Assembly (NCBI RefSeq): GCF_004361855.1
Contig: NZ_SNWQ01000017.1
Location: 1-64,000 of the forward strand
Reading direction: 5' to 3'
Source of the DNA: Kribbella caucasensis
Lineage (GTDB): Bacteria > Actinomycetota > Actinomycetes > Propionibacteriales > Kribbellaceae
DNA: 64,000 bases
A program made the translations under genes and the position numbers. The number at the start of each line of letters is the position of its first letter. The first letter of the stretch is position 1. Below, one piece after another: positions 507 to 42,071 of the stretch. Under the pieces are notes generated by a model, which did not search any database, had not been told where the DNA came from, and worked only from the letters and a program-made list of their open reading frames with translations.

Positions 507-581
507 ACTGACCCACGACCGGAGCCTACGAGCCCGGGCCACCCACGGACATGCCTCGGCGGGCTGGGGCGAAGCCCCGTT

Positions 582-748
582 AGGGCCTGTCTGACGGTTC
601 CCTGCGTGCTGCGCGGCACTCGGCACGGCATCTCGCCGCACTGGAGCAAAGGCCACGATGAACACCGCATCGAGGCCTTCACTCCAGCACACCGAGCTAC
701 CGCACCGAGCACCTGCTCGCGACTGCAGGGAACCGTCAGACAGGCCCT
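582..748. mobile_element. 167-bp foldback/MITE-like element, copy 1
   Basis: Perfect 24-bp terminal inverted repeats lie at 582-605 and 725-748 and begin AGGGCCTGTCTGACGG. Inside them, 40-bp arms at 615-654 and 674-713 pair with 28 identities, so almost the whole element folds back on itself around a loop of about 19 bases. A second copy of exactly the same length lies at 41875-42041. There is no transposase gene, so it must move in trans if it is mobile; the termini resemble those of IS5-type elements as I remember them. The bases just outside are TT on the left and TG on the right, with no clear target duplication. Confidence 0.8.
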
Positions 749-41098: not shown

Positions 41099-41887
41099 AT
41101 GACAGACGTGCACGCTCATCGGCTCGACGGCCGGGTCGCGGTGGTGACCGGCGGCGCCAGCGGGATCGGGCTGGCCAGCGTACGGCGGCTCGCGGCCGAG
41201 GGCGCGAAGGTCGTCATCGGCGACCTCGACCCGGACGCGGGCAAGACCACCGCGGACGAGGTCGGCGGGCTGTTCGTACCGACTGACGTGACCAGCGCGG
41301 CCGAGGTGGACAACCTGTTCAAGCAGGCCGACGACGTCTTCGGCAGCGTCGACATCGCGTTCAACAACGCGGGCATCTCACCGCCTGAGGACGCGTCGAT
41401 CCTGGACACTGGGCTGGACGCGTGGCGCAAGGTCCAGGAGGTCAACCTGACCTCGGTCTACCTGTGCTGCAAGGCCGTGATCCCGTACATGCAGCGACAG
41501 AGCAAGGGCTCGATCATCAACACCGCCTCCTTCGTCGCCGTGATGGGCGCCGCCACGTCGCAGATCTCGTACTCCGCGTCGAAGGGCGGCGTGCTCTCGA
41601 TGAGCCGCGAACTGGGTGTCGAGTTCGCCCGCCAGGGCATCCGGGTCAACGCGCTCTGCCCGGGGCCGGTGAACACCCCGCTGCTGAAGGAGTTGTTCGC
41701 CTCCGACCCCGAGCGGGCCCAGCGCCGGCTGGTCCACGTCCCGATGGGCCGCTTCGGCGAACCCGAGGAGATCGCCGCCGCGGTGGCCTTCCTGGCCTCC
41801 GACGACTCGTCCTTCATCACCGCCAACACCTTCCTGGTCGACGGCGGTATCTCAGGCGCCTACGTGACGCCTTTAGGCCATGTCTGA
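41099..41887 (+). CDS. Short-chain dehydrogenase/reductase with transposon-derived end
   Basis: A 262-residue SDR oxidoreductase. The cofactor motif TGGASGIG is at residues 18-25, NNAG follows, and the catalytic Tyr and Lys are in ISYSASKGG. It could oxidise the hydroxyl of gamma-glutamylethanolamide to the aldehyde used by the previous enzyme. The last residues GHV and the stop TGA come from the left end of a foldback element inserted at 41875. Relatives usually end near GAYVTP(L), so the native tail is replaced by only a few residues. Confidence 0.9.
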   Translation: MTDVHAHRLDGRVAVVTGGASGIGLASVRRLAAEGAKVVIGDLDPDAGKTTADEVGGLFVPTDVTSAAEVDNLFKQADDVFGSVDIAFNNAGISPPEDASILDTGLDAWRKVQEVNLTSVYLCCKAVIPYMQRQSKGSIINTASFVAVMGAATSQISYSASKGGVLSMSRELGVEFARQGIRVNALCPGPVNTPLLKELFASDPERAQRRLVHVPMGRFGEPEEIAAAVAFLASDDSSFITANTFLVDGGISGAYVTPLGHV

Positions 41888-42041
41888 CGGTTTCCTGCGT
41901 GCTGCGCGGCACTCGGCACGGCATCTCGCTGCACTGGAGCAAAGGCCACGATGAACACCGCATCGAGGCCTTCACTCCAGCACACCGAGCTACCGCACCG
42001 AGCACCTGCTCGCGACTGCAGGAAACCATCAGACACGGCCT
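41875..42041. mobile_element. 167-bp foldback/MITE-like element, copy 2
   Basis: It has the same length as copy 1 and an almost identical interior. Its 24-bp terminal repeats (41875-41898, 42018-42041) differ from each other at two positions. It lies between the SDR and FadR genes and supplies the SDR stop codon. The outer bases extend symmetrically to TTAGGCC...GGCCTAA, so no target duplication is evident. Confidence 0.8.
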
Positions 42042-42071
42042 AAGCTGACGGGGACGCTGAGCGGGGAGAAG

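Follow-up and report, generated by a model that had tools for sequence, protein, structure and literature searches.

Kribbella genomes carry a non-coding fold-back element whose two strands are not equivalent. The strand corresponding to the minus strand of the window (the whole 64,000-nucleotide stretch of the Kribbella caucasensis contig that was analysed) folds into a hairpin containing many G·U pairs, whereas its complement has C·A clashes at the same places, and nearly all copies have the same orientation relative to replication. The polarity of the mismatches between the arms is explained by selection for the fold of the minus strand and not by mutation bias. The near-absolute orientation relative to replication was found across genomes and is beyond what a reading of a single window could show. 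Two copies lie in the window, with the following parts:

581..582, no strand: TA at the left edge of copy 1, a target duplication by analogy with copy 2
582..748, minus strand: copy 1, a fold-back element of family 1; minus is the well-folding ("GU") strand
582..605, plus strand: left terminal repeat of copy 1, AGGGCCTGTCTGACGGTTCCCTGC, 100% complementary to 725-748
615..654, plus strand: left inner arm of copy 1, carrying the C and A residues of the plus-strand clashes with the right arm
674..713, plus strand: right inner arm of copy 1, from the comparison of the arms
725..748, minus strand: right terminal repeat of copy 1, 24 bp, a perfect match to the left repeat
41874..41875, no strand: left TA of the target duplication of copy 2; relatives without the element have CTCTAAGC or CTCTAG
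41875..42041, minus strand: copy 2, in the same orientation as copy 1
42041..42042, no strand: right TA of the target duplication of copy 2, from comparison with the empty sites of relatives

The element is 165-167 bp long and reaches dozens of copies per genome; the genome of the window contains approximately 12 full-length copies and many partial ones. It is present in all 38 Kribbella genomes and was seen in none of 256 genomes from other genera of the same order, for each of which only two candidates were scored. A genome-wide pattern scan outside Kribbella returned only short chance matches, plasmid and phage records yielded no homologue (one pattern match in a viral contig is a chance match), and positions 1-2000 of the window gave no Rfam family match above the gathering score. 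The outer stem is approximately 98% paired (114 copies). The flanks of 108 copies favour CT before the element and AR after it, that is, YTAR with the TA shared. At the locus of copy 2, approximately 29 relatives have an empty site (e.g., CTCTAAGC), whereas the window has a 165-bp insert with TA on each side; these empty sites confirm that the element duplicates a TA target. Copy 1 has TT rather than TA at its right edge (748-749), which makes its duplication imperfect or mutated. Copy 2 lies upstream of a GntR-family gene and was inserted at the stop codon of an SDR dehydrogenase; the SDR gene now terminates at a TGA within the terminal repeat of the element. Many other copies likewise adjoin stop codons, a distribution that a scarcity of YTAR elsewhere in GC-rich DNA would explain. 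By its form, the element is a MITE: a genus-wide, non-coding, MITE-like insertion.

Among the loci examined, no insertion sequence with matching ends was found that could serve as an autonomous partner. An IS5-type partner with DUF4096 was rejected, as it occurs in 8 of the 38 genomes and its ends do not match those of the element. Mobilisation by an HUH/RAYT enzyme was also rejected, because a Y1_Tnp (HUH Y1 transposase) domain is found in only one of the 38 genomes; the protein concerned belongs to the genome of the window (L283, G000:C7:51482-51820). This scarcity of Y1 and the TA duplication differ from the IS200/IS605 type, which has a Y1 HUH enzyme and no target duplication. The copies are single and dispersed round the chromosome, unlike integron attC sites, which form arrays at gene-cassette boundaries. 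Two tandem copies separated by four bases were observed at one locus (L125, G019:C25:431622-431946), and a similar arrangement occurs at G019:C24:349821-350027.

The first-pass annotation, made from the window alone, had described arm mismatches of a single polarity, and this description holds within the window and beyond it. When the left arm of copy 1 is compared with the reverse complement of the right arm, there are exactly 12 differences, of which 10 are transitions, and every transition sets a left C against a right T or a left A against a right G; the two differences between the terminal repeats of copy 2 (A/G and C/T) have the same polarity. Over 76 copies, the counts were 724 cells with G·U and 5 with A·C in the core, and 40 and 5 in the terminal repeats, which is far from an equal occurrence of both polarities. 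Folded as RNA, copy 1 reaches -138.4 kcal/mol on the minus strand and -108.1 kcal/mol on the plus strand (z scores of -15.1 and -12.5 against shuffled sequences), and with DNA parameters the values are -77.2 and -64.9. Changes were counted by Fitch parsimony on a FastTree tree of 114 copies; the counts are not of strictly independent events, because gene conversion among copies and the replacement of entire copies break the assumptions of the tree model. On the minus strand, 99 single transitions from Watson-Crick pairs produced G·U and 13 produced A·C (63:6 on terminal and 36:7 on internal branches). Both types of change are polarised at paired sites (C>T 56 versus G>A 9; A>G 43 versus T>C 4), and two-sided changes between Watson-Crick pairs are common (40 events in the core and 216 in the terminal repeats). 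RNAalifold on 35 cores produced a consensus of 48 pairs, 19 of which have two-sided changes. Orthologous pairs with wholesale two-sided changes of the arms were not accepted as stepwise compensation, because several of them can be accounted for by another copy of the same genome having taken the place of the original one. The outer 10-24 bp show wholesale differences between copies with near-identical cores, with complementarity kept within each copy, which may reflect concerted change or the replacement of copies. In one copy (L123, G017:C1:5896769-5898292) the inner 3′ arm is now a perfect complement of the 5′ arm, as a template switch during replication would give.

G·U accounts for approximately 19% of the core pairs, is common to nearly all copies at eight to nine positions, and is roughly balanced in its interchange with Watson-Crick pairs (62 events from G·U and 54 to G·U). 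The tandem G·U sites consist of GTGC opposite GTGC and have the arrangement 5′UG3′/3′GU5′ in 385 of 396 tandem cells, mostly at four ancestral sites. In the nearest-neighbour model, the cost of such a tandem in RNA is 3.3 kcal for G·U and 8.6 kcal for C·A, compared with 4.6 and 6.6 kcal in DNA, a separation of 5.3 kcal for RNA and 2.0 kcal for DNA. Because RNA energies discriminate G·U from C·A better, they moderately favour RNA over single-stranded DNA as the probable selected molecule.

A second fold-back family, with 13 copies in the genome of the window (L015, L017-L024, L031-L034), has the loop-proximal core in common with family 1 and differs from it in the outer arms and ends (AGTGTCCCGTGTCGG...). 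In all 13 copies the homologous strand is the better-folding one, and the folds contain 95 G·U pairs versus 8 A·C mismatches. Orientation was scored in nine complete genomes, with the replication terminus assumed to lie opposite dnaA. Relative to replication, 109 of 111 family 1 copies face one way, and the second family is uniform in the same direction (47/47), giving 156 of 158 for both families. The leading-strand template is thereby the foldable strand and the lagging-strand template the clashing one; both exceptional copies (G020:647857 and G034:2770217) are at most 7% of the chromosome away from dnaA. The bias is seen in every genome, with an effective number of copies that is lower if some are orthologous insertions across species, and it extends to diverged copies. 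Copy density declines from origin to terminus in the nine complete genomes (38, 34, 28 and 11). Gene orientation cannot be the source of the bias of the element, since co-orientation among the neighbouring genes is only about 61% (135:85). The direction of transcription was likewise rejected as a cause, because the 42:17 excess of co-directional flanking gene pairs for one orientation is explained by the co-orientation of genes with replication. Given symmetric terminal repeats, the only large asymmetry lies in the strand-polar interior, which is therefore the probable source of the orientation; it could act via selection after insertion, a strand-specific intermediate or an insertion machinery that reads the interior. 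The pattern suggests that in Kribbella genomes the strand able to form the hairpin is kept from being exposed as single-stranded DNA.

Deletion derivatives were also observed. Some (L271, L272, L277, L278, L280 and L016) are internal deletions of approximately 35-64 bp with both ends kept; L271 retains enough of the core to reveal the disfavoured orientation, and it is the only one so oriented among the few hand-placed derivatives with a core remnant. Others (L243, L244, L245, L246, L264, L265 and L268) are tiny remnants, such as TAGGGCCTGTCTGACGGGCCCTA and TAGGGCGTGTCTCCCTA, in which one end is joined at short homologies to a few bases of the other end. Derivatives reduced to their ends show that natural loss of the palindrome occurs, apparently through deletions at short homologies.

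The reading that best accommodates these results, to which we assign a probability of about one half, is that the minus-strand hairpin is selected, probably as RNA, and that the C·A clashes and the orientation together guard the lagging-strand template. Two opposing pressures would then shape the element. On the one hand, the window-minus strand would have to fold into a hairpin of about 165 nt, most likely as RNA, with G·U tolerated and A·C not. On the other hand, a DNA palindrome would be dangerous where it becomes single-stranded, mainly on the lagging-strand template. A hairpin written with G·U in place of Watson-Crick pairs would keep its RNA fold and carry C·A clashes on the opposite DNA strand, and copies would persist (or insert) only with the clashing strand as the lagging-strand template and the foldable strand as the leading-strand template. 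Hairpin toxicity on the lagging-strand template would act as the filter, so that the orientation would arise not when copies insert but later, as those facing the wrong way are lost. Against this reading, no promoter was identified inside the element, the plus strand still makes the outer stem, and the stability gap in DNA is only 12 of 77 kcal, which may by itself be too small for a bias of 78:1. In addition, diverged copies are oriented and L271 is the only wrong-way case among the few derivatives, which leaves room for a bias at the level of insertion.

The same facts can be arranged differently. It is conceivable, at about half the probability of the preferred reading, that the selected molecule is a minus-strand single-stranded DNA hairpin used for mobilisation, comparable to the bottom strands of attC sites, and that excision removes those copies whose foldable strand is the lagging-strand template. 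Such a hairpin would fit the orientation known from sedentary integrons (PMC5371416, PMC11023631), the better DNA fold of the foldable strand (-77.2 versus -64.9) and the existence of internal deletion derivatives; yet G·T is costly in DNA, whereas G·U is frequent in the core and interchanged with Watson-Crick pairs about equally in both directions, an HUH Y1 transposase occurs in only 1 of 38 genomes, and peel-and-paste transposition would not give a TA duplication. Rather less probable is that orientation is set at insertion by a replication-coupled transposase (e.g., via the sliding clamp, as with TnsE of Tn7), with the hairpin polarity serving something else. Replication-dependent orientation is known for Tn7 and IS200/IS605 (PMC5371812), and both the orientation of diverged copies and the drop in density from origin to terminus would be in keeping with this idea. 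However, an enzyme that reads only the near-perfect inverted repeats cannot distinguish left from right, a partner transposase was not found among the loci and genomes examined, and Tn7 and IS608 prefer termination regions, which is the opposite gradient (PMC5371812).

Explanations that dispense with selection fare much worse. The first-pass annotation had offered either a selected minus-strand hairpin, as RNA or single-stranded DNA, or deamination of minus-strand cytosines. The former is borne out by the excess of derived transitions to G·U at paired sites and the many two-sided compensatory changes, whereas the latter fails, because A>G is polarised in the same way as C>T. A mutation bias in general, from deamination or replication-strand asymmetry, could act consistently on copies that all face the fork in one way, but the bias is reversed at unpaired sites (C>T 5 and A>G 7 versus G>A 22 and T>C 12), and two-sided compensatory changes require selection or templated repair. 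Moreover, on the foldable strand the replication component at flanking fourfold sites has a GC skew of -0.024 and a TA skew of -0.023, and non-coding flanks have skews of -0.021 and -0.011, against +0.147 (GC) and +0.17 (TA) in the element; the flanks are thus almost unskewed and of opposite sign, and the skew of the element is not regional. Mutation bias is accordingly given next to no weight. A founder effect, in which an ancestor happened to carry the G·U positions and its copies inherited them passively, seems scarcely more credible: the eight to nine G·U positions in nearly all copies would agree with it, whereas changes derived on terminal branches are still polarised (63:6), a contradiction unless gene conversion among copies creates them, and the second family has the same polarity (95 G·U, 8 A·C) with different outer arms.

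Several known repeats resemble the element in part. Correia/NEMIS, RUP and ERIC are TA-terminated bacterial MITEs whose transcripts are predicted to form one long stem-loop, and like the Kribbella element they occur in multiple copies of 100-200 bp that have TA at either end and carry terminal inverted repeats, which in Correia/NEMIS are 24 bp long (PMC2229807). By contrast, the Kribbella element has a strand-polar interior (G·U versus C·A) and copies that face one way relative to replication, and a search of the open-access literature found no report of either feature for TA-type MITEs. The attC sites of sedentary chromosomal integrons are likewise imperfect hairpins with one favoured strand, located on the leading-strand template (PMC5371416, PMC11023631, PMC2727003); the foldable strand has this position in 25 of 30 arrays (PMC5371416), and inversion of a sedentary integron carries a fitness cost (PMC11023631). 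In attC, however, the strand is chosen mainly by extrahelical bases, whereas the Kribbella elements are dispersed singly, duplicate TA and imply no integrase. REPINs with RAYT transposases are also mobile hairpin-forming repeats with compensatory changes (PMC3116915), but RAYTs carry the Y1_Tnp domain that is so rare in Kribbella, and the terminal sequences and target duplication of REPINs differ from those of the element. The orientation of Tn7 (TnsE) and IS200/IS605 tracks the direction of replication as well (PMC5371812); their ends can be told apart or their transposed strand lies on the lagging template, in contrast to the identical ends and leading-template foldable strand of the Kribbella element.

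It is tempting to speculate, a little more tentatively than for the preferred reading itself, that the element is a mobile palindrome written in a G·U code, of which only one strand folds, and that its persistence is governed by the template strand that carries the fold, leaving chromosomes studded with replication-oriented hairpins. The finding joins strand-polar base pairing to replication-fork orientation, a link not previously seen for this class of repeats in the open-access literature. It provides approximately 160 natural copies with which to ask to what extent hairpins are purged from the lagging-strand template, a question usually addressed with engineered palindromes or integrons, and a clean route to asking whether the hairpins of bacterial MITEs are selected as RNA or as DNA. 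Should the pattern hold more generally, fork direction and the toxicity of single-stranded DNA hairpins would both be naturally recorded in strand-polar hairpin repeats.
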